A stretch of 42,373 nt of DNA from a virus. The position numbers and the translations under genes were made by a program. Shown here one piece after another: positions 6,808 to 30,000 of this stretch (position 1 is the first letter of the stretch; the number at the start of each line of letters is the position of its first letter). The notes below the pieces were generated by a model. That model saw only the letters and a program-made list of their open reading frames with translations. It had not been told where the DNA came from and did not search any database. The stretch is taken from positions 1 through 42,373 of the IMG/VR virus record IMGVR_UViG_3300017986_002826. One strand, given 5' to 3'.

Positions 6808-7739
6808 ACAGATTTAACTCCAACTGAACTTTTAATATCTTTAACAATCTGATTAATAGTTTTATCGTCAAGTTTCATTAAGTATTCATTATTTTTTTCA
6901 ATTCTAATATCATAAGACATTCTAATAGGCGAGTACATTTTTTTGCCTTTTCCGTTATCAATAATTTTCATATGTTTATTATTAGGATATGAAGTATTTT
7001 CTGGATATGTACTTCCAATAACAACTGTACTAGGTTTTCCTAGTGCATATGCAAGATGTTGTCCTACTGAATCACAACCTAAAAAATAGTCTGATGAGTT
7101 AATAATAGATGCCCATTGCAACAAACTAATTTGTTCTGGAACAATAATCCCTATAGAATTCTGTAATGGAATTTTAATATCTCCCATCATAATAACAGCA
7201 AAATCTTTGCTTAACATCTCTATTATTTTTAATAAGTCTTCTACTTCAAATGACCTTCCACTTTCATCAATAATATATTGACCTTCAAGTTTAGCAGCCG
7301 ATCCAAATGGCTGTATAACTATTGTTTTATCTTTCTTTGTATGTGCTTTTGCTTCTGTAATGAGATTATGTCCTGCTAGGTGATCTATCTTGCTGATAAA
7401 AAGATTGTATTCTTTCACAGGAGGAACTTCTTCTGGCGGCGTATCATAGTTAATTAACATGTCAAATGCTTGCACAAGATTTGCTCTTTGAGTAAAGTAT
7501 GCATTAAGTCTATACGGCTCCGGTGATATTACTTCTCTGTCTTGTAATTTTTCAAAAAGATTTGGATGATCATGAGGATATACATTATGCATAATTGTTT
7601 TGTTTAACAAACATAATTCAAGCCATCCTTCAACAATAATCATTGCTGTTGGGTCAACATTTTTTATGTAATGTTCTAGAGCTGGAATAGCGCATAATAC
7701 TCTACCGGCGCCACCGTTAATAAAGAAGGCTTTTTTCAT
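6804..7739 (-). CDS. GT9-like glycosyltransferase (heptosyltransferase family)
   Basis: 311 aa. An N-terminal G-G-A-G-R-V-L-C-A-I-P-A-L (9-21) matches the G-D-x-(V/L)-x-x-x-P-A-L start of family 9 glycosyltransferases. A central strand I-V-I-Q-P-F-G-S and the C-terminal F-L-G-C-D-S-V-G-Q-H-L-A-Y-A-L-G-K-P (about 219-237) with V-V-I-G-S-T-Y-P match the nucleotide-sugar site. GT9 enzymes use ADP-heptose to extend LPS inner core; a related group heptosylates serine residues of autotransporter adhesins. The phage makes ADP-heptose in the facing operon, so heptose is the likely donor. A late promoter lies 33 bp upstream, with an AGGA site before the ATG, placing the gene in the late class with the fibres. 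The acceptor is unknown. Confidence 0.82.
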   Translation of the reverse strand: MKKAFFINGGAGRVLCAIPALEHYIKNVDPTAMIIVEGWLELCLLNKTIMHNVYPHDHPNLFEKLQDREVISPEPYRLNAYFTQRANLVQAFDMLINYDTPPEEVPPVKEYNLFISKIDHLAGHNLITEAKAHTKKDKTIVIQPFGSAAKLEGQYIIDESGRSFEVEDLLKIIEMLSKDFAVIMMGDIKIPLQNSIGIIVPEQISLLQWASIINSSDYFLGCDSVGQHLAYALGKPSTVVIGSTYPENTSYPNNKHMKIIDNGKGKKMYSPIRMSYDIRIEKNNEYLMKLDDKTINQIVKDIKSSVGVKSV

Positions 7740-9391: not shown

Positions 9392-11608
9392 TTAATTATC
9401 TCCTTTAAGACTATTTATTTCTTGTTTTAACTCTTTAATTGCTTCAATTAGCAACGGTACAAGTCTTTCGTATTGTACTGTTTTATAATCTAAACCTTCT
9501 TCGTCTGACTTATTATTTATTGGAGCATCTTGTACTACTTCAGGCATAACAGCCATAACTTCTTGTGCGCTAACACCTACTTGTCTATGATCACCTTCAA
9601 ATCCTAGCTCTTTAGCTCTATCATTACCTGTGTAATAGTAACCATTTAGTGCTGTTACTTTATCTAATGCATTATCAATATTACCTTCAAAATTCTTTAA
9701 ACGTTCATCTGAGTAATATGCAATAACTTGGTTAGTTGCTCTTAATTGTCCAGTTACTTCAGCACCACTAGAAAATGTATTAAATTTCTCAGCGCCGTTA
9801 TAATATAGTCTACATTCACTGTTAAAGATGTATTGTAACGCCCATTCGTTGTTTGCATCATCATACAAGCCCATTGAGTTTGCATTATCATGCATAAACA
9901 CAGCGCGGCCGCCAATGTTATAACCTTCCCAACCACCGTGTGCGCCACCGTCAATTTGAATTGAACCGTAGTTACCACTTACTGGTTGGAAGTATCCGTT
10001 ACCTGTATCACCTAATCTAGTGCCTGTTCCGTTAATTGTTACTTCTTGTACGCCTCCCACAATAATAGATATTTCATTGCCTTCAAAGTCAAGATATGTG
10101 TCAGTATCGCCTGCGTGTCTAATATAACGTGCAACATCTAAGTTGCCAGTTGCTTCAAGGTTTGTAAATTTACCTGTTGAAGCAGTTGTAGCACCAATTG
10201 TCATGTTGTTAATAGATCCACCGCCTGCTGGTGATAATGTAACTGTACCTGATCCTGTTGGTGAAAGTGTTACGTTAGCCCCTGGGCTTAGTGTAACTGT
10301 TGAGTTAGCATCTAGTGTTGTAAACTGACCTGAACTACGTGAAACGTTACCAATTGCACCTTGGAAACCGCCTCCTGAGTAAACTCGTTTAGCAATACTT
10401 GCACCACCTTCGCAGCGTAGTACTCCAGTGTCGCCTGAGTTATCAGTTGCTTCAGTTGTAGCTGTAAAATCTACAGTTGAGTTAGCATAAAGTGTAGTAA
10501 ATGCTCCTGAAGATCTAGTTGTAGATCCAACTGGAGTATTTTGCAAACTTCCTGCATATAATGCGCCGTTGATACCAACACCGCCGTCAACTTGTAATGC
10601 ACCACTGTTTACACCAGTAGCTGCTGTAGTATTTGTTATAGTAGTAACACCGTTTGCTGTAAGAGTAGTGAACGCTGCTGAACTTCTACTATCTCCGCCA
10701 ATTGGCGTTCCTTCTAATCCGCCTGCCCATATATCTCCGCTTACACCTACTCCTCCTGTAACAATAACGCTACCTGAAGTAGTGCTTGTAGAAGCAGCGT
10801 TTGCTGTAAACTGAGCAGTACCTGTACCAGTTAATGAAGTAACTCTAGCAGTTGCTGGTGTTGTTTGACCAATTGCAACATTGTCTAAATTACCTAAAAC
10901 ATCTGAACTAATTGTTAGTGTTCCGCCTGCGCCAATTATTGTATCGCCACCTGGGTCAATAGTAACTGCTGATGCAGCACCTGTTGGTGACATATTAATA
11001 GTTTGATTATTTGCTGTAAAGTCTAAGTTACCTGGAAATTCAGTTGGTTTTCCAGCTTCACCTAATGATATTGATCCTGATGCTGATGCTAAGATTAAGT
11101 TACCAGTTGGACGGATAGTTGCAGTTGCCCCAGGCTGAATTGATACTGAACTTTGTGGGCTAATGTCAACTAAACCAGTACCTGTTGGTTTAATTTCTAC
11201 ATTTTCATCTAGTGGATTTAATTCTACTTTGCCATTTGCATCGAGCAAATCTCTAAATTCAACTGGATCTTCAAACACTGCCGGACCTGATAACGCACTT
11301 GTTAGAACGTAGTTAGTACCATCCGAAGTCATAGTAAATGTTGAATTTTTTGGAATATCAATACTTGTTCCGTTTGGTACTGGAACACCGTTACCAAGTA
11401 TTAATCCTGCTGCTGTTGCAAGTGTACAGTGTCCGTCTGTTGCATTGTAAAATGTTTGTTTGCTTCCTGGGAAAAAGACTGGACTTACCATCGTAACAGT
11501 ATACCCAGTTGTACCAGTTAGAGAAATAATTCCTCCGGTAAATGCGTAAGTAAATGTCTGTTCACCTGTAACTTCTAACGTTTGCGGTGCTGTATTATAA
11601 CGTGCCAT
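9392..11608 (-). CDS. tail fibre with C-terminal peptidase S74 intramolecular chaperone
   Basis: 738 aa. The middle is built of fibre repeats: R-S-S-G-A-F-T-T-L and S-G-A-L-Q-V-D-G-G-V-G-I-N-G recur about four times (about 240-440), as in trimeric beta-fibres. The C-terminal 106 residues are a peptidase S74 / endosialidase chaperone domain: S633-D-E-R-L-K638, then G-V-S-A-Q-E-V, L-D-Y-K-T-V-Q-Y-E-R-L-V-P-L-L-I-E-A-I and a terminal helix. In characterised members the Ser and a Lys five residues later carry out self-cleavage after trimer folding, releasing the chaperone. Both are present, so the mature fibre probably ends near residue 632. The ribosome-binding site is a weak GAAGAG. The last codons contain the promoter and Shine-Dalgarno of the next gene. 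Confidence 0.9.
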   Translation of the reverse strand: MARYNTAPQTLEVTGEQTFTYAFTGGIISLTGTTGYTVTMVSPVFFPGSKQTFYNATDGHCTLATAAGLILGNGVPVPNGTSIDIPKNSTFTMTSDGTNYVLTSALSGPAVFEDPVEFRDLLDANGKVELNPLDENVEIKPTGTGLVDISPQSSVSIQPGATATIRPTGNLILASASGSISLGEAGKPTEFPGNLDFTANNQTINMSPTGAASAVTIDPGGDTIIGAGGTLTISSDVLGNLDNVAIGQTTPATARVTSLTGTGTAQFTANAASTSTTSGSVIVTGGVGVSGDIWAGGLEGTPIGGDSRSSAAFTTLTANGVTTITNTTAATGVNSGALQVDGGVGINGALYAGSLQNTPVGSTTRSSGAFTTLYANSTVDFTATTEATDNSGDTGVLRCEGGASIAKRVYSGGGFQGAIGNVSRSSGQFTTLDANSTVTLSPGANVTLSPTGSGTVTLSPAGGGSINNMTIGATTASTGKFTNLEATGNLDVARYIRHAGDTDTYLDFEGNEISIIVGGVQEVTINGTGTRLGDTGNGYFQPVSGNYGSIQIDGGAHGGWEGYNIGGRAVFMHDNANSMGLYDDANNEWALQYIFNSECRLYYNGAEKFNTFSSGAEVTGQLRATNQVIAYYSDERLKNFEGNIDNALDKVTALNGYYYTGNDRAKELGFEGDHRQVGVSAQEVMAVMPEVVQDAPINNKSDEEGLDYKTVQYERLVPLLIEAIKELKQEINSLKGDN
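9412..9419 (-). promoter_or_regulatory. T4-like late promoter (AATAAATA) within the S74 gene end
   Basis: AATAAATA on the minus strand lies 23 bp upstream of the Gly/Cys-rich adhesin ATG. It is embedded in the last codons of the S74 fibre gene, and the following AAAGGAG serves both as Lys-Gly codons and as ribosome-binding site. It would let the adhesin and assembly protein be made in excess of the fibre. Confidence 0.6.
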
Positions 11609-11966: not shown

Positions 11967-14900
11967 TTATCTCGCTAAGAAGAATCCTAATGCAACTGGT
12001 GCACCGTCAATTCCGCCTGTAAAGTTCATCTTTGCTGTTATATTTAGTTGACCTCCGCTAGTTGTAGTAATTTCATCGTTTGCAATGAATACTGTACCAG
12101 CTGTCAATGTGTTAACGTTCAAGCTACTCTGACCACCACCAATCTGTGCTGTGATATAGCTCTTAATTGCACGTTGCGTTGGAACAACACTATCACTGTT
12201 TGCAGTAAAGAACGGGTCTGTACTAAATTGTGTAATAATTGCTGAGCCAATGCCAAGTCCAATACCATTAAGCTGCAATGATTGTAGTCCTGCTAAGTTA
12301 AATGCATCAGCATCCAATGTCGCAGTACCTGTGGACTGTTGTACACCAAACAAGCCGCCGACGTTAAAGTTACCGTCTTGGTCTGTACTTGTAAAGAATA
12401 CTCGTCCACCGTTGCTTGCTAACTGTTGTCTTTCTTGTAGTGCAGTAGTAATATCTACATATGGATAATTAGTGTCTGCTTGGTTACCAGTACCAATGTA
12501 CAAGAAGTCATGTCCTGTTAGACGTACTTGTGAGTATTTGTTAGTTGTAGTAATTCTTGTACCGTCTAGTGGTGCAACTAGTGTTGTTAGTCCCGGACTT
12601 AACTGGAATGTTGCACTGTAATCACCGCTGTCGCCTAGTACGTTACTAATAGCAACTAACTTATAGAATGTTCCAACACGATCTGCAAATTCAACGTTTG
12701 AACCTGGTTCTGGTAAATCAAACAAGTTCTTAACAGCAATAAATGTACTTGCTTGGAATAAGTCTGCTGAACCATCACCACTAAGTTCAGTAGTAGCTGT
12801 TTGATAGCCTGTACCTCTATTAGTAAATGTTGGGTTAGCTAATACACCGTCGCCTTGTCTTGCATCTATTGGAGCAGCTTGTGTTGAATTAGGATCTGTA
12901 ATAGTTACTATTGGACCTGTTCTAAATTCTGCACCTGTAAATGTTGCTGTTTCAACAACTACTGGAGTACCACTATTAGCAATTAAACTAACTGTAATTT
13001 CAGTGCCTGATGGAATTGTATTAATGTAGTACAATGATTCATCTGTTAGTCCTGATTCTGTAACACCAGTAAATTTAATTTGTTGTCCAACAATCATATT
13101 ATCTGTTGTATTAACAGTAATTGTATTTGAAGCAGTTGTACTTGCTACAGTTCCTTTTGGATAGTTTGATCCTGGCTCAATTATTCTTATTTGATTAATT
13201 GCGCCGTCTGCTTCGGTCAATCTACTTCTTGCTTTAGCACCAGTATTAATTGAAGCAGAGTCTGTTGCTACATCATCTGTTAATGCGATCCAATATGGCT
13301 TTTTATTAACACTACCAAATGCTAGTGCATGCCAGTCGCCTAGTGTAATAGCATGTTTAGTCCATGTTAATCCATCCTGTGATGTTGCATAAACATCTGA
13401 ATCTTCTGCTACTGCTACAAACAATCCTTGTCCGTATCTAACTGTAGACCAAGTTTCAACACTTGGTAATCCGCTTACAGATTCAATCCAGGTAACACCT
13501 TTATCATAACTAATTGCTACATCACGGCCGCTTGATGCAACTGCAACAAATCGTCCATTACCATAAGCAATACTTGTCCAAACTGCTGTAGCTGGTAGGT
13601 TACCTCCTGCTGTCCAAAGAATACCATTTGAACTTACAAGTGTTTCGTTGCCGCCGCCATTGATTGCAACATAATAACCTGCACCGTATGCAACACCAGT
13701 GAGTGTTCCTGCACCAAGTCCCGGAGTTGTTCTTGATACCCAAGATGAGCCATCAGTAGATGTAGCTGCGCTACCTGCGCCTCCTGATCCGCCAACTGCT
13801 ACATAAGTACCGTTACCGTATATAACTGATGTAAAGTTAGAATTTGGAAGAGCAGTGCCTGCTGTCCAGTTATCTTGATCACCATCACTTAACAATAGTG
13901 AAGCATTATCAGTAGAACCATTAGCAACTGCAACAAATTTAGCATTTGGATCTGTAATAGTTACTACTGGATCACTAGTGTAACCTGCACCAACTAATGG
14001 ATTATCGTCTCCATCAAGATCAAACGCAAGTGAAACTACACCGTTATTATCTGTTGTTGCAAGAACTGTTGCTTGTGTACTTGCACCGCCACCGCTAAGT
14101 GTAACTGTTGGTGTTGTTAAGTAACCATTACCGTATGAATCTACAATTAGTTGTGTTACTTTATCAGTTTCAACTGTTACAGTAGGTGCACTTGCATATC
14201 CAGCACCTGTAGTTGTTACAATAACCTCTTGTATTGAACCATTTAGTACTGTACATATTGCAGTTGCTCCATTTCCGCCGCCGCCGCTAATTGAAATAGT
14301 TGGAGGGCTAGTGTAACCTTGACCACCATTAATAACATTAATACGTGCAATCTGCGTAGGACCTGGTAAACCAATACTGTTTAGTTCACCTAGTTCTGCT
14401 TCAAGAACTGCATCACGGCCTCCTAAGCCCCCAACAATAGCTCTTGCAGTTGCTCCACTGCCGCCACCAAATGTAGCTTCTGACCAATTAGCACTTGCTG
14501 GTAATGCGCCGCCTTGTGACCAAGTTACACCGTCTCTTGAGTAAATTGAATCAGTTCCGCCATTCTGTAATGCAACAAATTTACCGTCTGCAAACTGTGC
14601 TGCTCGGAATGCTGTTGCCGGACTTCCAGTTGCGTCAACATCAGTTGTTGTACCTGGAGCACTATATGTAATACTAGGTTCAACGGTATATCCTGTTGTT
14701 AAATCAAGTGCAGGTTCAATTGGTGTTCCTGCAATAACATGATCCCATCCAGCTGCATAAAGGATTACATCTTTAGTTTCGTTTGTTAGTGTTTCGTCTG
14801 CGCCGCCTTCTGATGTACTTACAGTAAATGTTGTTGTACTAGGTATAGCAGTTACGTAGTAAACTGTTGTGCCTGATAATCCGCCAATATCATCGCTTAA

Positions 14901-17900
14901 ATATATTGGCATATTAACATATAATGGATATGTATCTGCAACAGTTAATACATTACCTGTTGCACTAGTTGCAGTAACAGTTAAGTTTTCAAAACTATCT
15001 TTATAAACTTTTGCAATTTTAGTACCGTTACTAAACGATAGTATCTTTGCATATTGACCTACACCAGTACCTGCTGTTATTTGAATATGCATTCCATTAT
15101 AAGCATTTGCCAATGCAGTATCAGTTGCAGCAAGTTGAGCTGTAATTAAATCACCACCCTGTGCAACGTTTTTAGCAGTCACGTATTCTTCGCCGCCTAC
15201 ACCGTTACCGTCGTCCAAGTCAATTAAACGAGTTTCAAATATACCAGCATCTCTAAATTCATCTGCAACTACTGTTGCATTAAACCCGTCGCCGCTTATT
15301 GCATACTGTGCATTAGTATAATTAACACCTGCATTATCAAATTCGATGTTAAGTACTTGTTCACCGGTTGTTAAAACATCACCTGCAAATGCATCGTTTG
15401 AAAGGTTATCTACATTACAGTATAGTGGAACTTCTCCAACATCGGTACCTTCTGCAATAACACCATATGTACCATATGAACTGTTACCGTTTGTAGCACG
15501 TATTCTTGCACCGTAATCTGCAATATAACCTGCATAGTTGTAGTATGCAAACACAGAAACAAGTTCTGTTAGTGAGTTGTTACCGCTACACCATACACCA
15601 ATACCATCCGATAGTACTTGTGTAAAGTCGTTGGATACCATTGAACGGTTACCACCTGAGTGTAGTCCGCCATCAATCTTATTACCAACACATCCAACGC
15701 CAAATGTAGTTACGTTTTGTATATATGGCGATTTGTTAGTGATCCATGCTTCAGTATCATTTGGTCCAAAACCTGGGTCAAGTGCAACATAAGCACCTGC
15801 TGTTGGTCGTCTAGTACCAAAATCGTTTTCCTCGGTTAAGTTACCACGTAAGCCATTAAGTGTTTGGTTACGAACACCAGTTGAGTTACGTACACGATAC
15901 ATATCTGAACGCTCTGAACCATTTACAGCATTTAAGTATAGTTCTGCTGCTCTTAATGATTTAAAGTTTCCTGGATATTGTAAATCGTAAACAATAGAAT
16001 CAATGTATCTTTCCATATCTCTACGACATGCTGCTTCGTCAAAGTTATAAGTTACACTAGGAGTACCTGTTACTACTCCGCCAATTGCTACAACTTCGCC
16101 TCCAACTGTTAGTGCTACTTTAAATGAAAGGTTATCAACAACTTCTACAATATAGTAAGTAGTTCCAGCAGTTAAGTCAGCAACGCCTGTTTCAAATACA
16201 ACAGGATCATTAACTATAAACTTATGCGGAGATGTAACTTGCACTGTATCTCCATTATTAATAATATCTACAGTTCTACCAAATTCACTAGTAACCCAAG
16301 CTGTTGCTTCGTTAGCAAGGAAGTTTCTATTTGCTTTAAGAATATCAACACCGTTAATTATTTGAATGTTATTTCTATATGAAACTGTTCCTGTAATTTC
16401 TGGGCTATCGTTTTCACCTTTATCAAGAATATTAATAATAATGTCCATTAATGCATTTGCACGTTTCTTAGGAACAACAACGTTATTTCCAGTACCAATT
16501 GATGTGTTTGTTAGGAAAGAAGCAATAACATTTTTAAGCTCTCTGTACGATTGTACTGTAGCAGTTTTTTGTTCTCCTAATACTAAATCAGCTTGTGCAC
16601 CTCTAAAGTATGCTAGTGCTGCTATAATAGTACGATAGTTACTATCAAGTAGTAAGTCCCAAATAATTGCATCAACAATATATCCAACATCTCTTTCACA
16701 CTTAACAGTATCATAATCTAAAGTTGGATAATTTGTTTCAATATATTCTGAAACACTAGATTTAATTGATGCTACAGAACCTGACAAGTTAGAAGCTTGC
16801 TGTTTTAGTGTTGCATTAATCGAAGAAATATCTGGATTAGTTTTAGCAACAATTAGTGATCCAAATGGTGATGCATCATCTGTTAGCGGAAATTCTGAAC
16901 CATTAAAGAACGATGCAACAGTAAATGTTGTTGAACTAGGAACAGATTTTACATAGTAGTTTCCATCACCAAAATCATTAAATGTGCCGTTAGTTCTTAC
17001 TTCGTCACCTACTTTAAGATTATGGTTTGCAGATACAGTTATAACATTGCTAGTAATATCAACAACTGTTAATTCTGTTAGTGTTGATTCAACACCACCT
17101 GATTCAATAATAGTTATTACATTTCTTATTAATGCATCTACTCTTGAAGCAGAATTTGCATCGCCAATTTCTTGAATATCAGTATCTCTAAATTTTGGTT
17201 CTATTTCAGTTTGTAATACACCTGGACTTCCTATTGTGTTTTGTGCTAAATCTCCACATAAGAAAATCATATATTCATAAGCATTAAGCGTAGCTTCTTG
17301 ATCTGCGCCATCTATTTGTAATGCTGCTGCTAAGAAGTATGCATCTGCAAACTGCTGAGTTGCTGTATCGCCGCCGTATGTCATATCATAACGAACTGCG
17401 TCAACTAGCATGCCAATATCACGCTTACATTTTTCAGAATCAAATTCAATTCCAGGATATTCTATTGCAATCCATTCAAGTACTTCAGTTTGAATAAATT
17501 CTTTGTTTTCCCAAATAATAGTAGCACCAGCTACATCAGCTGTATCTGAAGAAGCATTTATTCTCCATTTAGTTGACGGTCTAGCACCTCCATTAATTGT
17601 AGCAGTAATGTCGTCAATAATTAATTCTGCATGTCCTGATGCTGAATCAGTAACAACATGCTTTAATTTATGTTTTAAGAAGTTTACTGCACCAATAGTT
17701 GCTTTTAGTTCATTATTAATTACTTCATTGGTTGAAGTTAATGCTCTATGATAGCTCATTCCTGCTTTAATTGAAGCAAAGTTTGATCCTGTTAATATGT
17801 CACGTGCAATAGCATCGGTCATTAAACCTGCATCTCTACGACACGTTGTTTGATTATATGCAAGATCTTGGTTAAATTTTTCTACCCAATATACAACGTC

Positions 17901-20900
17901 TTCAACAATCTCGTATCTAGTTGCTGCGATTGTATTAAACGCTGTTTCATAATCTTCTTCTGCCCATTCAGTTGCAATTTCAATTGTTGCATTTGGGTTA
18001 CCGTTGTTAATCCAGTCTAAAATATCGTCTACACGATCTTCGGCAAATTCAATTGATGCTGCATTACCTGGTGTACCAGTAGTATCTTGTACTTCTGTAA
18101 CTCCTGGGCTAGTTGTTACTGTAGTTTCTGCAATAACTTCGCCAATTACTGTACGCATTCTAGCATATGCTGCTAGTGTTGAGGGCAACTCATCAATACC
18201 AATCGTTAAAACAAAGTTTGAATAATATGCGCTACCTGCAATTAGTGATTGTGTATTACCGCCATAAATCAAATCATAACGTATAGCGTCTAAGATATAA
18301 CCAACATCACGTATACAACGATCTTGTGCACCACTTGATAATGTGCCCCAGAAAGTATCGTAACCATTTGCTGGATCTTCTAACCATTTACGCACTTCTT
18401 GTTGAATAAACGCATGGTTTGCTGCAAGTTGATTTGCTGCATCGCTATATGTAGCATTAGCACCTGTTGTGTTAGATGCTGTTGCAAAGGCAATGTCTTC
18501 TGTTAAATTATTTGGAACAGGAAGTTCTATACCTGGTAATGCTGCAAGACCGTTTTCAATAATATTTCTAATATCATCTGCACGTTTTGCTGCAATCATT
18601 GCAACTTCAGTTGTACCAAGATCACTAATTACACCAATTGTAATTCTTGTTAGTGCTTCTTCAATAAAATTAATTGTAGCAATAGTAGGTTCTAGTTGAT
18701 CAGCCAGCACTACTTCTGTTGAAGTTATACCTCTTAAATATGACATGCCTGCTTTTGCGCTGCGGAAGTCACTGCCAAAGATAACATCGTATGCAATAGC
18801 ATCGATCATATAGCCTACATCTCTTGAGCAAATATCTTGGTCATATACTAGATCTGGATACTGATTATTGATATAATCAATTACACTGTCTTGTATAATA
18901 GACTTTCTGCCATCAATTACTGATTTTAGATCTTGATATGCACTATCTACCCATGCAGTACTTGGACTAATTATTGCTGGATCATCACCAGTATCGATAG
19001 TGTTATAAATTTCATTAATACGATCTACTGAAAACGCTGCTGCGCCTGCACTACCAGCAGTTCCGCTAGTGTCTTGACTAGTAACGTTTCCTGCACTAGG
19101 AGTAATTGCATTACCTGTAGCAATATCATCAATAATTGTTGCAAGGTGACTTTGTATTGCCAACGTAGCAACTTTTGTACTACTTGGTCTTATGAACACT
19201 CCATTACTGTAATAAGAACGTGCTACAACTATAGTTTCTAAGTTTCCACGATATGTTAAATCGTAACGTAACGCATCAATGCTATAGCCAACATCAGCAA
19301 GCCATGCTGCTTGTTCTCCAGCAGTAAGTCCTGTCCAAACAGAATTGTAGTTAGTATTTAGGTATGCTTCAATTTCGTCAATTATAAATTGTTTGTTAGC
19401 AAAAACTAATCTACGAGCATCAAAGAATCCTGTATCGTATCCTGTTGGATCTGTAATTGTAAATGATGTAGGATGTACACCAGATATTATAATATCTCTA
19501 ATAAGTTCAGTACTTGCTTTTACAGCATTTGTCCCTGAAGTAATTTCTTTAATTTCTTCTCTTATATGATTAACAGTAGCTATTGTAGCAGTTAACTGAT
19601 TTTCAATAACAACTTCTGCAGAACTAATAGCTCTACGATAGGACATTCCTGACTTAAGAGATCTAAATTTACTACCAAACATTATGTCATAACGTAATCC
19701 GTCAATTATATATCCAACGTCTCTTGAACACTTAGCATGATCATATACAAATTCGCTATAGTTGTCAGTGATAAATTGTAATACAGCAGGAACAACAGTA
19801 GTATCTGCTAATACATCATCAACATCAGATTGAATAGCTGCTGTTGCCCAACTGTAGTCTGGATATGTTTTAGTTGGAATACTACTTAAACTTCCTGCAT
19901 CAATTGCACTAATTAGTATATCTAATAGTGTTGCAGCTTCAGCTTCTTCAGTAACTCCTGACATATAGCCAGTAACAATAGTTTTTAATTCTGTCATTGC
20001 TGCAACTTCAATTTGACGCTGACTTACTGGTAAAGTACTTGCCCAACCGTCAAAGTATGCCTTAGTTACTTCGATAGTTGCACTATTACCTCCGTACTGG
20101 ATATCATAGCTAAGTGCATCAACAATGTAACCTGTGTCTCTTTCGCATACTGCTTGATCATATGCAAAGTTTGGATAGTTTGTATTAATCCAATTTGTTA
20201 CATCTGTAATAATGTCAGCTCTATTTGTTTGTAGTTCAGTACGTGCTATTGTTTTATTTGTTACACCGCCTGGATCAGTCCAGTTAATTACATCTGCTGC
20301 GGCAGTGCCGTTTTGAATAATATCAATTACTTCAGTCCAATAAGCAGTATTTCTACTAATAGCAGTTGCATCATTTAGTAACGCTTCTACTAAGTCACGT
20401 TCTTCAGTAATTGCGCCAACTGTTTCTGTTAACTGATTTTCAATAACTTCTTTGCTTAAACTTCTTCTGTATGATAGACCATCTCTAACTGCATTATAGT
20501 TAGTTCCTAATGCAATATCATATGATGCGCCTGTTTGTAATAAGCCTGCATCTCTACGACATTTTGCACTGTCATATTTAAATGTTCCAAAGTTACTATT
20601 AACATAATCAATAACTGATTCCTGTATGCTTGGTGTAGCTGTTATAATACTGTTATTGATAGTAGTTAATGACGAAGCTACCCAAGTAGTGTCTGGAAGT
20701 ATTGGTGTTGCTAGTGTGCCGTCTGTATCAATAGTATCATAAATTTCTTGAATACGTGCTTCTGCAAATGTTTCTGCGCCTGCACTACCTGCTGTACCAT
20801 CTGTATTTTGTGTTTCTGTATTGCCTGGTGTAGGCGTAATTGTAGTTTCTGTAATTACATCGCCAATAATTGATTTAAGATGAGCATATGTTGCAAGTGT

Positions 20901-23900
20901 TTCATCTTTTTTACCAGTACCGTAAACTGGACTACCGTCTACAAAATAACTTCTAGCTGCAACTGTTGTTTCTAAGTTTCCGCCGTAGGTTAAGTCATAT
21001 CGTAACGCATCAATAATATAACGTGTGTCTCTTTCACAGTTTGCAGTATCAAAAGTAAACAATGCATCAAATGGTGCAATTACATTATCAACTTGGTATT
21101 GAATCCAAGCAGTTTGTTCTGCAACAATAAAATCAACATTTGCTTCAAGTTGTGCAACAGCATTAGCAAATCCTGAATCGCTTGCATTGTTTGTACCACT
21201 TGTAGGTGTTGTACCAACTTCTGGCAATGTTGGAACTATATCTAAACCTTCTACTAAAATATCTGCAAGTAATTTAGTACTGTTGTTTGTTCTATCAGTT
21301 GCAACTGTTGTTCCGCCATAACCATTTATAAAAGACTGCGGTGTTATATTTCCAGCTGTTGGTGCAATTTCAATATTTTGCATTAACTCAGGAATAACAT
21401 GTTTAATTCTATTCAACGCACTTGTTGTTTTATTTTTATCATTTGCAAGCAATTTAATTGCAGGTGCAGGCTGTACAACGCTTGTACGTAGTTCGTCACC
21501 TACTACCGCAGTGTATTCTGGAATGATAATTGGAAGAACTTCATTATAAGTTCCTGTTTTTAAGAATACAGTAGTATTTGGGTTTGTTACTGTGGGAATA
21601 GCAGTTGCAGAACCTGCCTCAATACCATGAGTAACAATATCTATCATATCGCCTGCTTTTTCAATTGCAACAGCTTCTGCTTCTAGTGATAGATCAATAA
21701 TTTGTGTTGCTCTATCTTCAAATGGTATTGCATTTATTGATTGATAACTAACAGGTTGTTGATTATTTAATACATCAATAACAATATTTTTTAAATGTTT
21801 GTATGCTGCAACGGTTTGCTCTCCTTGAGATCCAAATGTTCCATTAATGTATTCATTACCTGCAGGTGTGTAATAAGATTTAGCTGCGGTAACTGTTTTT
21901 AGAGTTCCGCCTCTTGAAATATCATAAATTAAAGCATCAACAAGATATCCAGTATCACGTTCACACTTAACAGTATCATATGCAAGATTACCTTCCATAC
22001 TACCTGAAGTTGTAGTTAATACTAAAGGTATACCACTATTTTGTATTGTACTAATTCTAAATGTAGTACTTGATTGTACAGTGTCAACATAGTAAATAGT
22101 TCCAGCAGTTACGCCACCTAGTGTGCCATCAAAAACAATTGGCATACCAGGACGTAGGTTAGAAGTATCAGCACAAGTAAATACTTGAGTTCCTGTTGTT
22201 GAAGCAGTAACAATAACTTTATATGTATAAGTAATCCATTCTGTTACTTCTTTCATTAAAAATTCTTTGTTGTTTTTTAGAATATGCTTTGCTTGTGGAT
22301 TTAAATATCCATCACGCACTTGTTCCATTGCATAACGTACACTTGCCCAAGGCTTATCAACTGTTAAACCTGATGCTGGAGCAGGTTCATTTGTACCTAG
22401 TGGGCCTACATATACAACATTGTCAATTAGGCCGTAGTTTGCCCAGGCCGGTGCTCCGTCTGTAACACGTAAAATCTGACCGTCGATACCAATTGGTAGT
22501 CTTGTAGGTCCATTATCACCGTAATAAACTAAATCACCTTGTGTAGTTAACGAAAGTGCTTCAGAACCTAAAGTTAATAAGTTCCAATATGTAGCAGTTA
22601 CATCGTTGTCAGGGCGATTGCTTATTGAAGCAGTATGCTTGCTTACACAAATAAAACTACTTGCACCAAAAAATACAACATCGCCTTTTTCGTAAAGAGT
22701 TGTTGCTTTCCAAGTTGACGAATTACCAGTTGATGTAATTGTATCAATTGCACCTGCAGTTGCTCCAGTAACAGTTACTCTAATATCGTTAGCAGGAGAT
22801 GTACCTCCAACATTTGCTCCCGAAATAATAATAACATCATTTTGGTTGTATCCTGTACCTGCAAAACCAGTTGACACGCTAACTGTATAAACAGTATTTG
22901 ATTTAACTACGTCAAAACGTGCTGCTGATCCTGAACCAATTTCGTTAGTGCCACTTACTTGTAGGAAAGTTTCTGTACTAACTGTCCAATTAATACCACT
23001 ATTTAATTGACTCCAATCTGCGTCTGTTGTTATGTCTGCTGATCCAAGATTGTCTGCTAATGCAACAAAGGTGTTGCCTCCTAAACGCACAACATCACCA
23101 ACTTTGTAACTAGTTAATGCTGACCAATCACCTTGGAATTTAAAACCAGTAGTAAATACGTCCCAGTCATCTGGATTATTTGTTGGTTGACTATTTGTAT
23201 TATTTGTTCTAGCAACATAAACATAGCCACCGTAAGTTACAGTATCGCCAACTTGGTAATTTGAAATAGAATTCCATGAATCTTCAAATTGGAATCCTTC
23301 AATAAATACTTCCCAATTAGCTTCATCTAATTCAAAATCATTTGATGTATGAGGAGCAGTGGCAATCCAAATATTGCCGCCGTATTTAATTAAATCATTA
23401 ACACGATATCTTGTAGCAGTAACCCATTCGCCTGTGTAGACTAATCCGTCACTAAACAAAGTCCATTTAGCCTGATCGTCTTCTAATCCTAATGCAGAAG
23501 TAGCAGCAGAAACGTGTGCTTCGTTACATACATAAACATAACCGCCATAGCGTACTAGGTCATTAAGTTTATATCTTGTAGCAGTTGTCCAGTCACTTTT
23601 CCAATCAAAAGAAGTAGCAAATTCTGTCCACTTTTCTAAGTCAGCTTCTAGACCTAAATAATTAGGAGCACTAAATGTTGCCGATGTATGGCCAGTTTCA
23701 GCAATATAAACGTTTGCACCATACTTAACAACATCACCTGGTGCATATTCAACTTCTGGTTCCCAATCTGCTTTCCAGCTAGTACCATCAGATACAATAT
23801 TCCATTTTGGAATAACATCTGTAAAGTCTGTATTGAACTCTGTTGATGCTGTGTGATTTTTAATACATATGTAAGATTTACCCCCAAAACTTACAACGTC

Positions 23901-23978
23901 ATCAGCTACATATACTGTATTTGCGGTCCAACTGCCTTGCCATACAAAGCGTATTCTACCTAGTTTAAATTCTGCCAT
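11967..23978 (-). CDS. giant 4003-aa virion fibre/adhesin
   Basis: Uninterrupted 12-kb gene with GGAG before the ATG and a late promoter 22 bp upstream. Order of parts: seven CBM5/12-like W-x-x-x-x-x-Y-x-x-x-D-x-V-x-Y/F-G-G repeats (1-450); a DUF1565-like entry motif V-Y-V-G-P-L-G-T (about 527); beta-helix start with G-T-Y-N-E-V-L-P and G827-D-E-L-R; a block of repeated, probably helical units with C-x-R-D (first unit near 665, the rest about 860-2690); beta-helix resumed with S-P-Y-I-Q-N-V-T and R-A-T-N-G-N-S-S-Y-G (about 2740-2845); YYV-type beta repeats; a BNR-like propeller (about 3118-3550) interrupted by G-x-G-Y repeats; and a C-terminal S-T-D-Q-D-G-N-F module (3857 onward). It is a virion surface protein by homology to its neighbours. 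Its size implies a long fibre or a large adhesive domain. No enzyme motif was recognised. Confidence 0.85.
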   Translation of the reverse strand: MAEFKLGRIRFVWQGSWTANTVYVADDVVSFGGKSYICIKNHTASTEFNTDFTDVIPKWNIVSDGTSWKADWEPEVEYAPGDVVKYGANVYIAETGHTSATFSAPNYLGLEADLEKWTEFATSFDWKSDWTTATRYKLNDLVRYGGYVYVCNEAHVSAATSALGLEDDQAKWTLFSDGLVYTGEWVTATRYRVNDLIKYGGNIWIATAPHTSNDFELDEANWEVFIEGFQFEDSWNSISNYQVGDTVTYGGYVYVARTNNTNSQPTNNPDDWDVFTTGFKFQGDWSALTSYKVGDVVRLGGNTFVALADNLGSADITTDADWSQLNSGINWTVSTETFLQVSGTNEIGSGSAARFDVVKSNTVYTVSVSTGFAGTGYNQNDVIIISGANVGGTSPANDIRVTVTGATAGAIDTITSTGNSSTWKATTLYEKGDVVFFGASSFICVSKHTASISNRPDNDVTATYWNLLTLGSEALSLTTQGDLVYYGDNGPTRLPIGIDGQILRVTDGAPAWANYGLIDNVVYVGPLGTNEPAPASGLTVDKPWASVRYAMEQVRDGYLNPQAKHILKNNKEFLMKEVTEWITYTYKVIVTASTTGTQVFTCADTSNLRPGMPIVFDGTLGGVTAGTIYYVDTVQSSTTFRISTIQNSGIPLVLTTTSGSMEGNLAYDTVKCERDTGYLVDALIYDISRGGTLKTVTAAKSYYTPAGNEYINGTFGSQGEQTVAAYKHLKNIVIDVLNNQQPVSYQSINAIPFEDRATQIIDLSLEAEAVAIEKAGDMIDIVTHGIEAGSATAIPTVTNPNTTVFLKTGTYNEVLPIIIPEYTAVVGDELRTSVVQPAPAIKLLANDKNKTTSALNRIKHVIPELMQNIEIAPTAGNITPQSFINGYGGTTVATDRTNNSTKLLADILVEGLDIVPTLPEVGTTPTSGTNNASDSGFANAVAQLEANVDFIVAEQTAWIQYQVDNVIAPFDALFTFDTANCERDTRYIIDALRYDLTYGGNLETTVAARSYFVDGSPVYGTGKKDETLATYAHLKSIIGDVITETTITPTPGNTETQNTDGTAGSAGAETFAEARIQEIYDTIDTDGTLATPILPDTTWVASSLTTINNSIITATPSIQESVIDYVNSNFGTFKYDSAKCRRDAGLLQTGASYDIALGTNYNAVRDGLSYRRSLSKEVIENQLTETVGAITEERDLVEALLNDATAISRNTAYWTEVIDIIQNGTAAADVINWTDPGGVTNKTIARTELQTNRADIITDVTNWINTNYPNFAYDQAVCERDTGYIVDALSYDIQYGGNSATIEVTKAYFDGWASTLPVSQRQIEVAAMTELKTIVTGYMSGVTEEAEAATLLDILISAIDAGSLSSIPTKTYPDYSWATAAIQSDVDDVLADTTVVPAVLQFITDNYSEFVYDHAKCSRDVGYIIDGLRYDIMFGSKFRSLKSGMSYRRAISSAEVVIENQLTATIATVNHIREEIKEITSGTNAVKASTELIRDIIISGVHPTSFTITDPTGYDTGFFDARRLVFANKQFIIDEIEAYLNTNYNSVWTGLTAGEQAAWLADVGYSIDALRYDLTYRGNLETIVVARSYYSNGVFIRPSSTKVATLAIQSHLATIIDDIATGNAITPSAGNVTSQDTSGTAGSAGAAAFSVDRINEIYNTIDTGDDPAIISPSTAWVDSAYQDLKSVIDGRKSIIQDSVIDYINNQYPDLVYDQDICSRDVGYMIDAIAYDVIFGSDFRSAKAGMSYLRGITSTEVVLADQLEPTIATINFIEEALTRITIGVISDLGTTEVAMIAAKRADDIRNIIENGLAALPGIELPVPNNLTEDIAFATASNTTGANATYSDAANQLAANHAFIQQEVRKWLEDPANGYDTFWGTLSSGAQDRCIRDVGYILDAIRYDLIYGGNTQSLIAGSAYYSNFVLTIGIDELPSTLAAYARMRTVIGEVIAETTVTTSPGVTEVQDTTGTPGNAASIEFAEDRVDDILDWINNGNPNATIEIATEWAEEDYETAFNTIAATRYEIVEDVVYWVEKFNQDLAYNQTTCRRDAGLMTDAIARDILTGSNFASIKAGMSYHRALTSTNEVINNELKATIGAVNFLKHKLKHVVTDSASGHAELIIDDITATINGGARPSTKWRINASSDTADVAGATIIWENKEFIQTEVLEWIAIEYPGIEFDSEKCKRDIGMLVDAVRYDMTYGGDTATQQFADAYFLAAALQIDGADQEATLNAYEYMIFLCGDLAQNTIGSPGVLQTEIEPKFRDTDIQEIGDANSASRVDALIRNVITIIESGGVESTLTELTVVDITSNVITVSANHNLKVGDEVRTNGTFNDFGDGNYYVKSVPSSTTFTVASFFNGSEFPLTDDASPFGSLIVAKTNPDISSINATLKQQASNLSGSVASIKSSVSEYIETNYPTLDYDTVKCERDVGYIVDAIIWDLLLDSNYRTIIAALAYFRGAQADLVLGEQKTATVQSYRELKNVIASFLTNTSIGTGNNVVVPKKRANALMDIIINILDKGENDSPEITGTVSYRNNIQIINGVDILKANRNFLANEATAWVTSEFGRTVDIINNGDTVQVTSPHKFIVNDPVVFETGVADLTAGTTYYIVEVVDNLSFKVALTVGGEVVAIGGVVTGTPSVTYNFDEAACRRDMERYIDSIVYDLQYPGNFKSLRAAELYLNAVNGSERSDMYRVRNSTGVRNQTLNGLRGNLTEENDFGTRRPTAGAYVALDPGFGPNDTEAWITNKSPYIQNVTTFGVGCVGNKIDGGLHSGGNRSMVSNDFTQVLSDGIGVWCSGNNSLTELVSVFAYYNYAGYIADYGARIRATNGNSSYGTYGVIAEGTDVGEVPLYCNVDNLSNDAFAGDVLTTGEQVLNIEFDNAGVNYTNAQYAISGDGFNATVVADEFRDAGIFETRLIDLDDGNGVGGEEYVTAKNVAQGGDLITAQLAATDTALANAYNGMHIQITAGTGVGQYAKILSFSNGTKIAKVYKDSFENLTVTATSATGNVLTVADTYPLYVNMPIYLSDDIGGLSGTTVYYVTAIPSTTTFTVSTSEGGADETLTNETKDVILYAAGWDHVIAGTPIEPALDLTTGYTVEPSITYSAPGTTTDVDATGSPATAFRAAQFADGKFVALQNGGTDSIYSRDGVTWSQGGALPASANWSEATFGGGSGATARAIVGGLGGRDAVLEAELGELNSIGLPGPTQIARINVINGGQGYTSPPTISISGGGGNGATAICTVLNGSIQEVIVTTTGAGYASAPTVTVETDKVTQLIVDSYGNGYLTTPTVTLSGGGASTQATVLATTDNNGVVSLAFDLDGDDNPLVGAGYTSDPVVTITDPNAKFVAVANGSTDNASLLLSDGDQDNWTAGTALPNSNFTSVIYGNGTYVAVGGSGGAGSAATSTDGSSWVSRTTPGLGAGTLTGVAYGAGYYVAINGGGNETLVSSNGILWTAGGNLPATAVWTSIAYGNGRFVAVASSGRDVAISYDKGVTWIESVSGLPSVETWSTVRYGQGLFVAVAEDSDVYATSQDGLTWTKHAITLGDWHALAFGSVNKKPYWIALTDDVATDSASINTGAKARSRLTEADGAINQIRIIEPGSNYPKGTVASTTASNTITVNTTDNMIVGQQIKFTGVTESGLTDESLYYINTIPSGTEITVSLIANSGTPVVVETATFTGAEFRTGPIVTITDPNSTQAAPIDARQGDGVLANPTFTNRGTGYQTATTELSGDGSADLFQASTFIAVKNLFDLPEPGSNVEFADRVGTFYKLVAISNVLGDSGDYSATFQLSPGLTTLVAPLDGTRITTTNKYSQVRLTGHDFLYIGTGNQADTNYPYVDITTALQERQQLASNGGRVFFTSTDQDGNFNVGGLFGVQQSTGTATLDADAFNLAGLQSLQLNGIGLGIGSAIITQFSTDPFFTANSDSVVPTQRAIKSYITAQIGGGQSSLNVNTLTAGTVFIANDEITTTSGGQLNITAKMNFTGGIDGAPVALGFFLAR
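15910..22030 (-). repeat. twelve C-x-R-D helical repeat units inside the 4003-aa protein
   Basis: Protein-level repeat with consensus Y-D-x-x-K-C-x-R-D-x-G-Y-I-x-D-A-x-x-Y-D. Units begin near residues 665, 975, 1140, 1280, 1420, 1560, 1717, 1887, 2046, 2184, 2427 and 2650. Two subtypes alternate: one continues G-G-N-L-E-T-x-x-A-A-R-S-Y-F with a following A-Y-A-H-L-K segment, the other G-S-x-F-R-S-x-K-x-G-M-S-Y-R-R-A with x-N-Q-L-x-A-T-I. Eleven of twelve keep the cysteine; the unit near 1560 has lost it. DNA identity between units is visibly low, so the expansion is old. Confidence 0.85.
22630..23970 (-). repeat. seven CBM5/12-like repeats, N-terminus of the 4003-aa protein
   Basis: Each repeat of 50-65 residues carries W-(K/Q/T)-x-x-W, an aromatic Y about seven residues on, (G/N)-D-x-V, then Y-G-G-x-x-Y-(V/I)-x, often followed by H-T-S and K-W. 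This is the pattern of the small three-stranded CBM5/12 (chitin-binding type 3) fold. The first six are in tandem; the seventh is separated by a beta-rich spacer. Confidence 0.75.
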
Positions 23979-24007: not shown

Positions 24008-27000
24008 TTATTGCTGTCCTGAGCGTGTTGGATCGAATAATGTCTTAAAGAAATATGACATTGCTAATCCGTCACCTGCCCAACCGCTATTACCAAATGC
24101 ACCACTTTGGTTCATCTTTGTTCCTATTTTAATTTGCCAGCCTTCGGAACCTTCTTCAACTGAAGAAGTAATTATATCTGGACCACCTACTTTAACAGTA
24201 CCTGCTTGTAATAAGCCTGTAAATGTATCTGAACCACCTTGTGATAATCTACTTGTTAAGTATGTTCTAATTGCTTTTTGAGTTGGTACTAAATTATTAG
24301 AGTTAGCAACAAATGTGCCATCTGTACTAAACTGTGTAATAACAACCGGCGAGCCACCAAGTGCAACACCACCAATACTCAATTCACTCAAACCATCTAG
24401 TCCAAACTCGTCTGCACTCAATGTAACAATACCAGTCGCCTGTTCAACAGCAAACAAGTCACCAACTCTAAAGTTACCGTCTTGGTCTGTTGAACTATAG
24501 AACACACGCCCGTTATTTGTTTCTTGAACTTCGTCTTGCGGCTCTAAATTTGTATTCTCTGGTAACCCAGGATAGTTTGATTGTATTTCGTTACCAAAAC
24601 CAATATTTAAGAAGTCGTGGTTTGTTAAACGCACTTGACTAAACCTTGAACGCATTGTAAATGCTGTATCGTGTTCTGGTGAGTCTTGTTCAGTAATTTG
24701 TGGAGATATTTGTATATCACATGCTAAGTTTGGAACAGTTGTACCTCTTAATACCGTTGCTTTTGCAACTCGATATACAGTATCGTCCCAATCAAACTGA
24801 ATATTATCTCCAGGTTGTGGTAATCTTGTTAAATCTTTAACAATTATTCTTAACCCTGTTTGATATGCATCTGAGAATCCTGCACCTCTAATACTAATAG
24901 CAGTAGAATTAGTATTATATCCAGTACCTTTATTTGCAAAGGTTGGCGGGCCAAGAACTCCATTACCTATGCGAACTTGCGTAATAGCTTCTTTAGAGTT
25001 ATTTGGATCTATTATAGATATAGTAGGCACTGTAGCATAACCTGATCCTGATTGTTGCATACCAATACTTGTAAGTGTAGTATTATCAACTGTTACTCTT
25101 GATTGTGCTCTTGAGCCTGTAGATATTTTAGTTACAACACCAGAAGAGTCAGCAGTTATAAAATATCCCTTTTTAGTTGTGTTATCAAAACTAAATCCTA
25201 ATGCAGTATAATCTCTAACCTGTCCGTTTAATACTTTCCAGTTAACGCCGTCTTCACTTTGACAACATATACCATCTTCTACGTTTAATACTACAAATAC
25301 TCCGTTACCATATGAAAGTAATGTTCCTCTTACAGTTAAATTTGAAGCATACCATGTTATGCCATCAAAACTGTATACTGCTGATCTTTCATCTGATGAA
25401 ATAGCAACAAATCTTCCGTTTCCATACTGTATTTGAGTCCAGTTATTAACTGTAGAGTCTTGTGAATTATCTAATGTTCCTTCGCTCCAACTATTGCCGT
25501 TATCTGTACTATACTTAATAGTATGAGATGACCCAGATATGGCAACAAAAACTCCGTTACCATAAGCTAAATCAACCCAGTCATCATCACCAAAAGTAAA
25601 ACTATTGTAACTCCAAGATGCGCCGTTATTGGCTGACCAAGCAATAGTTTCTGATCCTCTTGCAACAGCAACAAATACTCCATTACCATATGCTATTGAT
25701 GACCATTCTTCGCCAGGCTGTAGTCCTAACAAGTTTGTTTCTAACCAAGTTACACCTTCAGATGCTGAATATAAAACTCTGCCAGATGTTGAAATTAATA
25801 CCCAAGTATTATTTCCGTAAGCTGCATCTGCCCAAATAACAGTTGCTGGATCATCAGCGATCGTAACCGGTAATGTAATTGGAATATCCCAGTTTTCAAA
25901 GTCTGATGTACTTACAGCATTGGAGCCAGATTCTGGAAATGCAATTGGATGAAATCCGTTTGATCTAATTAAATTATATGTACCTGAAAGACTGCTTGCA
26001 AATAATTCCTGTGTAAACTCTGGTCTATCATATTTAATTCTAGGTTCAACGTTATATATTGATGTTGCATCAAAATTAGTAACTAACGGTGTTCCAGGAT
26101 TAATATGATCCCAACCTACTGCACCAATTTGCATTGAACCAGTATCAGTAGCAAGTGCAACCGGAAGTCCGCTTCCTTGAGTAGATTCAACTGTGAATTC
26201 TTTAACTACTGTTGAATCATCAACATCTAATGTTATTGAAGTAATATTAATTGCTCCGGCAACCGGTGCTGTTTCTACGGTATTAGCTGTTATTGTTAAT
26301 CCAGCATTTGGAATTTGATCCCAATCGCTATCTAATGTAGCATATAGAGTTCCTTCTGTTACATCTTGAAGAGTTAATATTGTTCCAGCTTTTACATTTT
26401 GAATGTGTTGTAAAAATGCGTTAGTAACACTTGCATCAAGTTCAATTGTGATAGTGTTTACACTCCAAGAAGTTGTTGATACATTCCAGTTACTAGTATC
26501 TGGATATGTTGTAGTAGGCACAGTTTCAAATTTATCTAAAACATAATATGTTTGATTAGTAATTCCGCCATAAGTTTCTGTATAGAATTGACCTCCCATT
26601 GTAGCGCCACCACCTGAAGTAACTGTTTCTTTTTCGCCTGGCGACACACTTGCCATTGTTCCAGTATCAGTTGTAACTGTTACTGTATTAGCAAGTGTTC
26701 TAACAATAACACTTCCTGTAGCATTTAATAATGGAACTGCTGATCCTGACGGTGTTTCTGATATTGTAAATGATGTAGCATTGTTTACAACCTGAATGTA
26801 ATACACCTTATCATTGGTAACTCCGCCAAATGTTGTTCCTGATAATATTATAGGAGTCCCAGTAATAAATCCAGCTGTACTTGTTACTGTAATAAGGTTA
26901 GATGTTGCTTCTGTTGCTGTTGCTTCTGTTGTAATTACAGAACTAGAAACTGTAAAGTTTGTACCATCAATAATTTCGTTAATCCAGTATTGTGTTTTTT

Positions 27001-30000
27001 CTGCTAGGCCGCCTAATGCACCTGATTTAAACACAACTGGGTTTAAAGGAATTAAAACAGAAGTATCTGCTGTAGTAATACTATTATCACCTGCATCAGT
27101 TGCAGTAGCGTCAAACTCTATCTTGTTATTAGAAATACTAAATTGTGTATCATTATAAATTTCGTGAATATAATAAATATCACCTAATGTAATGTCGCCT
27201 AAACTTGTTCCAGTAAACTGTATTGGATAAGCTATTTCCATATCTGCTGTAGAATCTGCTTTTAAATAACTAGTATTTGAAGGATAGTTTATTGTAAAAG
27301 GTGCTACGTCAGTAGTAAGTACAATCGGAGCGCCTTGTGGATCTTCAATGTTTACGTTATTTAATGGCCAAACACCACCGCCTAATGTAGTTGAAATTTG
27401 AATTGTTTGGTCGTCAATTATACTAAGAATATAATAGTCAAATCCTGTAATTACACCACCAAAAGTTTCGCCTGTAAAGTTAATTTTTTGATTAACTCTT
27501 AACTTAGCAGTGCTTGTAACATACATATAGTTGTTTAAATCACCTAATGTACCCAATACTTGTAGTTGATCTTGAGCAGTTGAATTTATGTTAACATCAA
27601 AATATGTTGGTGTAAATTGAATTGGTTGTCCTGGATACACTGTGTGGAAATCTGAGTCTGAACTCAATTCAAATCTATCAGTAACTGAATTTGAACTAAT
27701 AACTTCTAAACTATCAAACGATTCTTTTAGAACATACGCTCTTTTCAGTGTGTCGTCGTAGCGTGATATTATTCCATATTGTCCAGCACCTAAACCACTA
27801 GAAACGATCAATCTCATACTTTCATATTCTGCCGGTGTTGCAACTTCTGATCCAGCAAGTGTTAGATACTCATCATTACCAGTTTGTGCATTATTAGATT
27901 GGAATTTATAACCAAGTCCTCCTTTAGCAAGTGTATCATCTTCTAGTATACGAGTTTGGAAAACGCCTCCACTTCTTAATTCGTCAGCTATGATAGATGC
28001 ATCTCTACCTGCACCGCTTACATTTACATTTGCATAACCTGTTGGTGTATTATCATCTGTTTCTAAGAAGAATGTTAAGTCGCCTATTTGTACTTGACTT
28101 CCATAAAAGTTTGTAGATCCCGAAATACCGTCAACACCACGAGGATATAATCTAAATTTTAAATTTGTATTTTGTGCAGTTTCATCCCAAAACGTAAACG
28201 ATATTCTCCACCATCCATCTTCAACAAAGTCTGCGCTATACGAAGTAGCAATAATTCCTCCGTCTGGTGCTTCTAACATACTCAATTCTTCAGTATCAAA
28301 ATTAAATCTTGCAATAGATGTTTTAGTATCATAACCATTAAAGACTGCATGTATATCAAAATAAGGTGCTGTTTGTTTTTTAGCATATATACTTGCAGTG
28401 TAAGGTAATGCACTACCTTCTGGTACTGTGCCTTCATGCGATACAGTTAAAATAGATGTAATAGACAAGCTAGTAACAGTAACAACAATGTCATTTGTTC
28501 CAGGAGGAGCACCAAATTCTTGGCCTGAAATGTTTATTTGGTTTCCAACATCGTAACCACTTCCTCCATTATTAACTGCAACTACATATCTGTCGCTAAA
28601 CACAGTAACATCAAATGTTGCATCAATACCTGAACCGTCAATATTCGTTCCTGCAATATTTGTGTATGTTTTACCTTGTGGTGCAATATTTCTAACTTGC
28701 TCTATATAACTACTATCCGTTAAACTTGTAATGCCTTCTATTTTCCAAGCAGTTTCGTTTTCAAACGGTGTAGTTGCTGATTTAGTAATATTAAGATTAC
28801 CATCAGTTACCCAAGTAGTATCTAAGAAATTATTACTTTGACGCATTAAGTTTGTTGCTGATGTATAATATTCTTCACCAGCATGACTGAATTGTATTTT
28901 TAAAATTTCAGCATTTGCACCTAATGCACCGACTGCACTAGCTTGTGCTTGATTTTCTCTGTTATTAACTTTACCTGTTGCTGGAATTTCATTGACATCA
29001 AACCCTTCTGCAATACAACCATATTGACCATAAGATGAGTTACCATTAGTAGCACGAATTCTGCCGCCGTCTTCTGCAAAGTACCCTGCATAGTTATAAT
29101 ATGAGAATACAGAAACACATTCAACCAATGCATCGCCGCCTGTACACCAAACTCCTATACCGTCTGATATAATTTGTGTAAAGTCGTTACAAACAATTGA
29201 ATGATTGCCACCGTTATGTAATGTGCTGTCAATTTTAAGTCCAGTACATCCTTTACCAAAGTTTGTTACGTTTTGAATGTATGGAGATCTGCGTGTAATC
29301 CAAGCAGTGGTGTCATCTGGATCTGTTCCAGGATCTAAACTTACATAGGATCCGCCTGTTGGACGTCTTGTTTCATACTCATTTAGCTCTGTTAATGTTC
29401 CTAACAATCCTGTTAATGTCATATTACGAATGCCTGTAGCATTTTGTACATAGAACATATCGTTTAATGCATTTCCGCCATAAACATACATATAGCCAAT
29501 ATTAGTTGTTAATTCAACTGGTGGTCCGTCTGGTGTCTCTGCAACACTAAAAGTAGTATCAGTAATACTACTGCCAATTACATAATACGTTTTTCCAGGA
29601 ACAACATCACCAATAACTGTACTAATTTCATCTACCGGATTTAAAGAAACAAATTGTACTCTAGAATTATGCTCCATATTAACAGTTGAGCCAACAACAA
29701 ATTGATTAATAAATCCAAATGTTCTAGTACAAAGTGTATTAATTATATTTGCAGGTTTAACTGCTGCACCGCGTAATTCGTCTCCGTTTAATGCACATCT
29801 TTCAGGAAGTACAATTGGTAATATTTCTTCGTATGTTCCTGACTTAAGGTTAATCGTTGTATATGCGCCTTGATTACCAGGTGGAATATTTACTGGAGTA
29901 CCTGATTCAAGAGGCTCTCTAATAATTCTTTCTAAACTATTAAGTATTGTAATAGTATCATTTTCAATAGTTAGCGCATTATTAAAATACTGTGTTGCAA

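Follow-up and report, generated by a model that had tools for sequence, protein, structure and literature searches.

The 4003-aa tail-fibre protein of a T4-like aquatic phage contains a long insert in a loop of its predicted beta-helix. The insert is best explained as a row of tandem domains with a globin fold that share ancestry with phycobiliproteins and with bilin-binding globins; these domains probably carry covalently attached bilins. The window in which it lies is the whole stretch of viral DNA analysed (42,373 nucleotides; IMG/VR virus record IMGVR_UViG_3300017986_002826, positions 1 to 42,373).

The fibre genes and the insert

The open reading frame (ORF) of this protein (11967-23978, minus strand) matches PHROG tail-fibre families, and comprises seven N-terminal CBM5/12-type stretches (PF02839), a predicted beta-helix, the phycobiliprotein-like array and a C-terminal part. 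Its 2706-aa paralogue (24008-32128, minus strand), recognized from the ORF list and the unit profile, has the same layout with one unit only. The tail-fibre assignment rests on annotation and PHROG category: the same proteins make up the cyanophage tail-fibre families PHROG 9851, 4527, and 5342, inside which the unit domain falls and which carry tail-fibre labels with no fold or ligand attached. The units are flanked by stretches predicted to be all-beta, for which beta-helix tailspikes and carrageenase come up as matches at low confidence. In a model of the paralogue, the beta part is predicted, at low confidence, as regular short strands (pLDDT about 35-80, mostly 40-65) whose best matches, of low probability, are tailspike and carrageenase beta-helices. 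The CBM5/12-like stretches (chitin-binding type), seven at the N-terminus of each large ORF, lie at approximately 22599-23930 and 30740-32080 (minus strand). Elsewhere in the window, an S74 intramolecular chaperone domain forms the C-terminus of a 738-aa fibre (9533-9712, minus strand), and carbamoyltransferase and glycosyltransferase family 9 genes (4993-7739, minus strand) adjoin the tail genes, perhaps for the modification of virion or surface glycans.

In the 4003-aa ORF, the motif GDELR occupies residues 827-831 and MYRVRN begins at residue 2693. The 1,861 residues between them (15903-21485, minus strand) constitute the insert, as delimited by the motif positions and by comparison with a relative (L034) in which the same loop is a clean 5-6 residues (GDELRGTTISPA-AGYEQDNMFYVRN). 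The initial annotation had counted about 1,860 residues here, in agreement with this figure; its count of about 113 for the 2706-aa paralogue is too high, as 104 residues separate GDELR (782-786) from MFYVQN (891). In the two smaller paralogues the equivalent loop is short, as had been noted, but measures about 14 residues by translation rather than 15-25. Beyond the insert, the restarting beta-helix stretch (15318-15902, minus strand) is 60% identical to that of the paralogue.

The comparison of insert length across related phages, suggested at the outset, sets the short loop of L034 beside full-length orthologues of about 4,000 aa that keep the same insert (independent contigs L011, L013, L014, L015, L018, and L020; 59-81% identity). 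In other relatives, the loop ends with one helical unit directly ahead of the beta-helix restart. An assembly error joining separate genes is ruled out because the orthologues on independent contigs carry the same insert.

Organization of the array

The insert consists of 11 tandem copies of a domain of about 120-150 residues, and one more copy lies upstream of GDELR. With an iterated profile, the 4003-aa ORF gives 13 significant stretches (E 1e-6 to 1e-41), which correspond to about 12 units, and the paralogue gives one. The spacing of units is 138-171 residues in the compact part of the array. The unit consensus is C-x-R-D-x-G-Y-x-x-D-A-x-x-x-D-x-x-x-G-G-N, followed by a Tyr ten residues further, and C-x-R-D is kept in every unit of the ORF except the sixth.

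All units were located with the profile and lie on the minus strand. Unit 1 (21756-22298; residues 561-741; CERD), upstream of GDELR, precedes unit 2 (20829-21209; residues 924-1050, E 1.8e-38; CERD), unit 3 (20355-20738; residues 1081-1208; CRRD), unit 4 (19941-20324; CERD), and unit 5 (19518-19880; CSRD). Comparison of orthologues reveals that unit 6 (19095-19496) has lost the site, reading WLAD where five orthologues have CLRD. Then come unit 7 (18636-19004; CSRD), unit 8 (18108-18482; CIRD, with FIQD in L014 and FITD in L018), unit 9 (17634-18017; CRRD), unit 10 (17232-17600; CKRD, with FTTR, KKQE, and FNRD in orthologues), and unit 11 (16494-16847; CERD). Unit 12 (15921-16433; residues 2516-2567 and 2571-2686; CRRD) is interrupted, within its B-E loop, by a beta module, and its end adjoins the beta-helix. 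The single unit of the paralogue (30077-30481), supported by profile, orthologue comparison, model, and Foldseek, reads TKRD and has thus lost the Cys.

A module of about 75 aa, all-beta in appearance, recurs in both large ORFs (approximately 21980-22220 and 16050-16280, minus strand). In units 1 and 12 it occupies the B-E loop ahead of C-x-R-D. ApcE has a loop insertion at the same place.

Fold and homology of the units

The units have, with high confidence, a phycobiliprotein-like fold and share ancestry with phycobiliproteins. An AlphaFold2 model of unit 4 (residues 1222-1372), built with 75 aligned units, has a pLDDT of 91.3 and a pTM of 0.83, and its six helices fit globin helices A, B, E, F, G, and H. 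Structure prediction on pieces, which the initial annotation had called for, therefore yields a single unit that is all-alpha at high confidence, and rules out that the units belong to a continuous beta-helix. The earlier description of a chain of helical units in the loop of a beta-helical fibre is supported by the all-alpha units and their predicted all-beta flanks; what it missed is their identity as bilin-globin (phycobiliprotein-like) domains.

In a Foldseek search of the PDB with this model, each of the 50 listed matches has probability 1.00 and is a phycobiliprotein, an engineered relative, or the bilin domain of ApcE (TM-score 0.54-0.69 by query length and up to 0.72 by target length among the matches listed; best E 2e-3). 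The strength of this model-based comparison is the unanimity of its matches and not their E-values, none of which is below 1e-3. A second model, that of the paralogue, was built from a different, shallow alignment, and its unit matches phycobiliproteins as well. When the unit profile is compared with PDB sequences, 34 of the first 35 matches are phycobiliproteins, with phycocyanins on top (best E 4e-4). The Pfam family Phycobilisome (PF00502) matches the 4003-aa protein (P0001) at residues 1274-1358, at unit 4, and the protein scores 26.2 bits against a cut-off of 22.2. Of 62 units searched singly, only 9 give a match at E<=0.1; the score of the modelled unit by itself is 19.0. An hhalign comparison of units with phycocyanins scores 41.9, the maximum over 60 column shuffles being 18.7 and the reversed control 14.5. 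Of eight whole cyanobacterial genomes, six give any match to the unit profile at E<=1, and in each of these the sole match is at the phycocyanin locus; the genomes were chosen via that locus, yet each was searched whole, and the E-values of the single matches lie only in the range 0.16-0.9.

Taken one by one, the sequence matches are weak, and the pairwise identity of units to phycobiliproteins is about 15-26%, which would suit a convergence of some generic helical bundle around a chance motif. Such convergence is extremely improbable: the sequence profile, the genome-wide best match, the fold search, and Pfam agree on one family, the shuffled controls are far lower, and the second model matches the same family from a different alignment.

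The units share with phycobiliproteins (phycocyanin, phycoerythrin, allophycocyanin) and with the ApcE bilin domain the globin helices A, B, E, F, G, and H and, in helix E, the register C-x-R-D-x-G-Y...Y...G-G with the usual Lys before the Cys. In contrast to phycobiliproteins, the units lack the N-terminal X/Y helices on which alpha/beta assembly relies (the first helix of the model is A, at residue 17), have a shorter B-E loop, and carry Asp in place of the Arg in phycocyanin's LRM. Phycobiliproteins form alpha/beta discs, whereas the units are tandem beads in one viral polypeptide of 4,000 aa. Because the X/Y helices are missing and the pigment is only predicted, the units are kept apart from phycobiliproteins proper; their place is with the bilin-globin fold, which they may also resemble in function.

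The C-x-R-D site

CXRD has been published as a bilin-attachment motif, found in phycobiliproteins and in some bilin-binding globins of heterotrophs (PMC10151467). Among 132 non-redundant units, the Cys, Arg, and Asp are present in 89, 88, and 95%; for 77 further units, from 15 additional contig regions, the figures are 88, 88, and 96%. With kinship ignored, absence of the Cys goes with absence of the Arg (p=4e-10 in the first set, 7e-4 in the second) and of the Asp (p=5e-7 and 1e-3). D59, D64, and G68 do not track the Cys in either set; G55 tracks it in the first, and Tyr80 and N70 in the second. Among orthologous units, site losses occur at six positions, several to Trp or Phe, and the Arg is almost always gone too.

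Binding of bilin by most units is a prediction that we consider slightly favoured, at about even odds. What the computation shows is that the units are repeats, are predicted to share one fold, specifically resemble phycobiliproteins, conserve C-x-R-D, and tend to lose its residues together. The pigment steps that we infer are as follows. The lone Cys of a unit would bind a linear tetrapyrrole (bilin) covalently, with the Arg and Asp holding its propionate and pyrrole nitrogens in the manner of phycobiliproteins. A phycobilin-making host could supply the pigment, or it could come from heme oxygenase and bilin reductase encoded by the phage. The assembled virion would then have many pigment sites at its receptor-binding end, and in a speculative last step light, acting through the pigment, might tune fibre conformation or adsorption.

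It is also conceivable, if doubtful, that the domains derive from phycobiliproteins and are free of pigment, the globin bead serving as a stiff spacer or lateral contact and C-x-R-D being kept for packing or contact with a neighbour. The persistence of site-lost units in the arrays and in the paralogue indicates that the fold stands without pigment. Against a pigment-free bead are the retention of the Cys in about 88% of very diverse units, the loss of Arg and Asp alongside it, and the uncoupling of the structural residues D59, D64, and G68.

A third explanation, that the site binds another ligand covalently or reversibly (another tetrapyrrole, a flavin, or a host thiol) or that the Cys forms inter-chain disulfides at the trimer axis, is quite improbable. 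Ten of the 11 Cys of the insert are motif Cys, so intra-unit disulfides are excluded for nearly all units. An isolated Cys in a presumably extracellular protein would suit another ligand or disulfides between chains, and losses to Trp or Phe suggest a filled pocket; however, motif, helix, and register are the same as at the phycobiliprotein bilin site, and disulfides leave the joint loss of Arg and Asp unexplained.

Bilin biosynthesis-associated globins (BBAGs; Rockwell et al. 2023, PMC10151467) are, like the units, relatives of phycobiliproteins, and some have CXRD. They act outside light harvesting and occur with heme oxygenase (HO) and bilin reductase (FDBR) genes, as do some unit-bearing phages. 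BBAGs are cellular proteins encoded beside bilin genes, whereas in the phages the units are repeated within a fibre protein: clustering of the BBAG type with pre-PcyA or HO was not seen, and the HO/FDBR cassettes on some unit-bearing contigs lie away from the fibre gene.

Distribution among phages

All isolate matches in tblastn are cyanophages, except for one uncultured ‘Marine’ record. By profile, the units per whole record number 14 in S-WAM2, 11 in S-RSM4, nine in S-PM2, eight in S-H9-1, seven in Syn1, five in B23, four each in DSL-LC03, P-HM1, and P-HM2, and three in Syn9. The same whole-record search finds none in P-SSM2, P-SSP7, HTVC008M, Mosig, T4, CBB, PA5oct, Vibrio 2.275.O, or Phosso, and divergent units are absent from P-SSM2, Mosig, and HTVC008M even at E<=10. 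A search of a collection of genome contigs gave no close relatives of one unit.

Units are found in 8 of 10 aquatic far-T4 contigs picked by the capsid gene gp23. The isolates suggested that units are confined to cyanophages; this is ruled out as a rule by far-T4 contigs that carry units and have no detected psbA or cpeT. The psbA gene was not found in the 20 unit-bearing contigs searched for it, nor cpeT in the 15 searched; most of these contigs are fragments, so photosynthetic and non-photosynthetic hosts are both conceivable. Matches range from 1 to 24 per genome or contig, a free variation in number that would suit a pigment-free bead. The longest array seen, on one of the far-T4 contigs picked by gp23, is that of a 5,616-aa ORF (L315; contig G048:28000-46500), which holds most or all of 24 matches.

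Bilin genes and light-dependent adsorption

Aquatic phages carry cassettes of HO and FDBR (PcyX, PebS) genes for making bilins; the paper describing them leaves the pigment acceptor unassigned and offers phytochrome or BBAGs as possibilities (PMC11480375). Some phage cassettes of this kind share a contig with units. HO and FDBR genes occur together in the unit-bearing contigs G014, G007, and G029, where they form tight ClpS, HO, FDBR operons, and in P-HM1 and P-HM2, which infect Prochlorococcus and also have units; the several capsid-gene matches on G007 suggest that this contig may be mixed. In contigs of T4-like aquatic phages, an operon of ClpS, heme oxygenase, and bilin reductase, with a tryptophan halogenase, a pair of fatty-acid desaturases, or no further gene ahead of the reductase, is seen at L153:1575-4609, L066:2721-5766, and L154:2637-4816.

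Neither HO nor FDBR is present in eight unit-bearing Synechococcus phages. The lack of bilin genes in many unit-bearing phages speaks for a pigment-free bead; in these eight, it would fit a bilin supply by the host. Both genes are present in P-SSM2 and Mosig, which lack units, and 9 of 18 contigs picked by FDBR have units, compared with 8 of 10 picked by gp23, so there is no enrichment. Tracking of FDBR genes by units is thus unsupported, given P-SSM2, Mosig, the eight Synechococcus phages, and these proportions. The pathway genes are compatible with bilin binding and do not prove it.

Several cyanomyoviruses are known to depend on light for adsorption. In the dark, P-HM2 fails to adsorb, whereas P-SSP7 adsorbs (PMC7112961). 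Units are present in P-HM2 and absent from P-SSP7, but the latter is a podovirus and very few phages are compared. Adsorption of S-PM2 is light-dependent, and P-SSM2 adsorbs in the dark. The presence of units in the former and their absence from the latter would fit a link with light, and light-dependent adsorption via the units is no more than a lead.

Implications for phage biology

Titles and abstracts in the open-access literature yielded no report of domains of the phycobilisome, phycobiliprotein, or bilin type in the tail or virion proteins of phages; on the evidence of that search, a virion protein with a phycobiliprotein-like domain would be new. The broadest proposal, that many aquatic T4-like phages build pigmented virions whose fibre arrays, with host- or phage-made bilins, sense light and switch adsorption, is unlikely on present evidence. 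Two questions become directly testable: the purpose of phage bilin genes (HO, PebS, PcyA, PcyX), above all in hosts free of phycobilisomes, which a 2024 paper still asks, and the cause of light-dependent adsorption in some cyanophages. A bilin acceptor in the phage's own fibre would be a candidate answer to both. If true, pigmented, light-sensing fibres would account for the failure of some cyanophages to adsorb in the dark and for the presence of genes for making bilins in phages.
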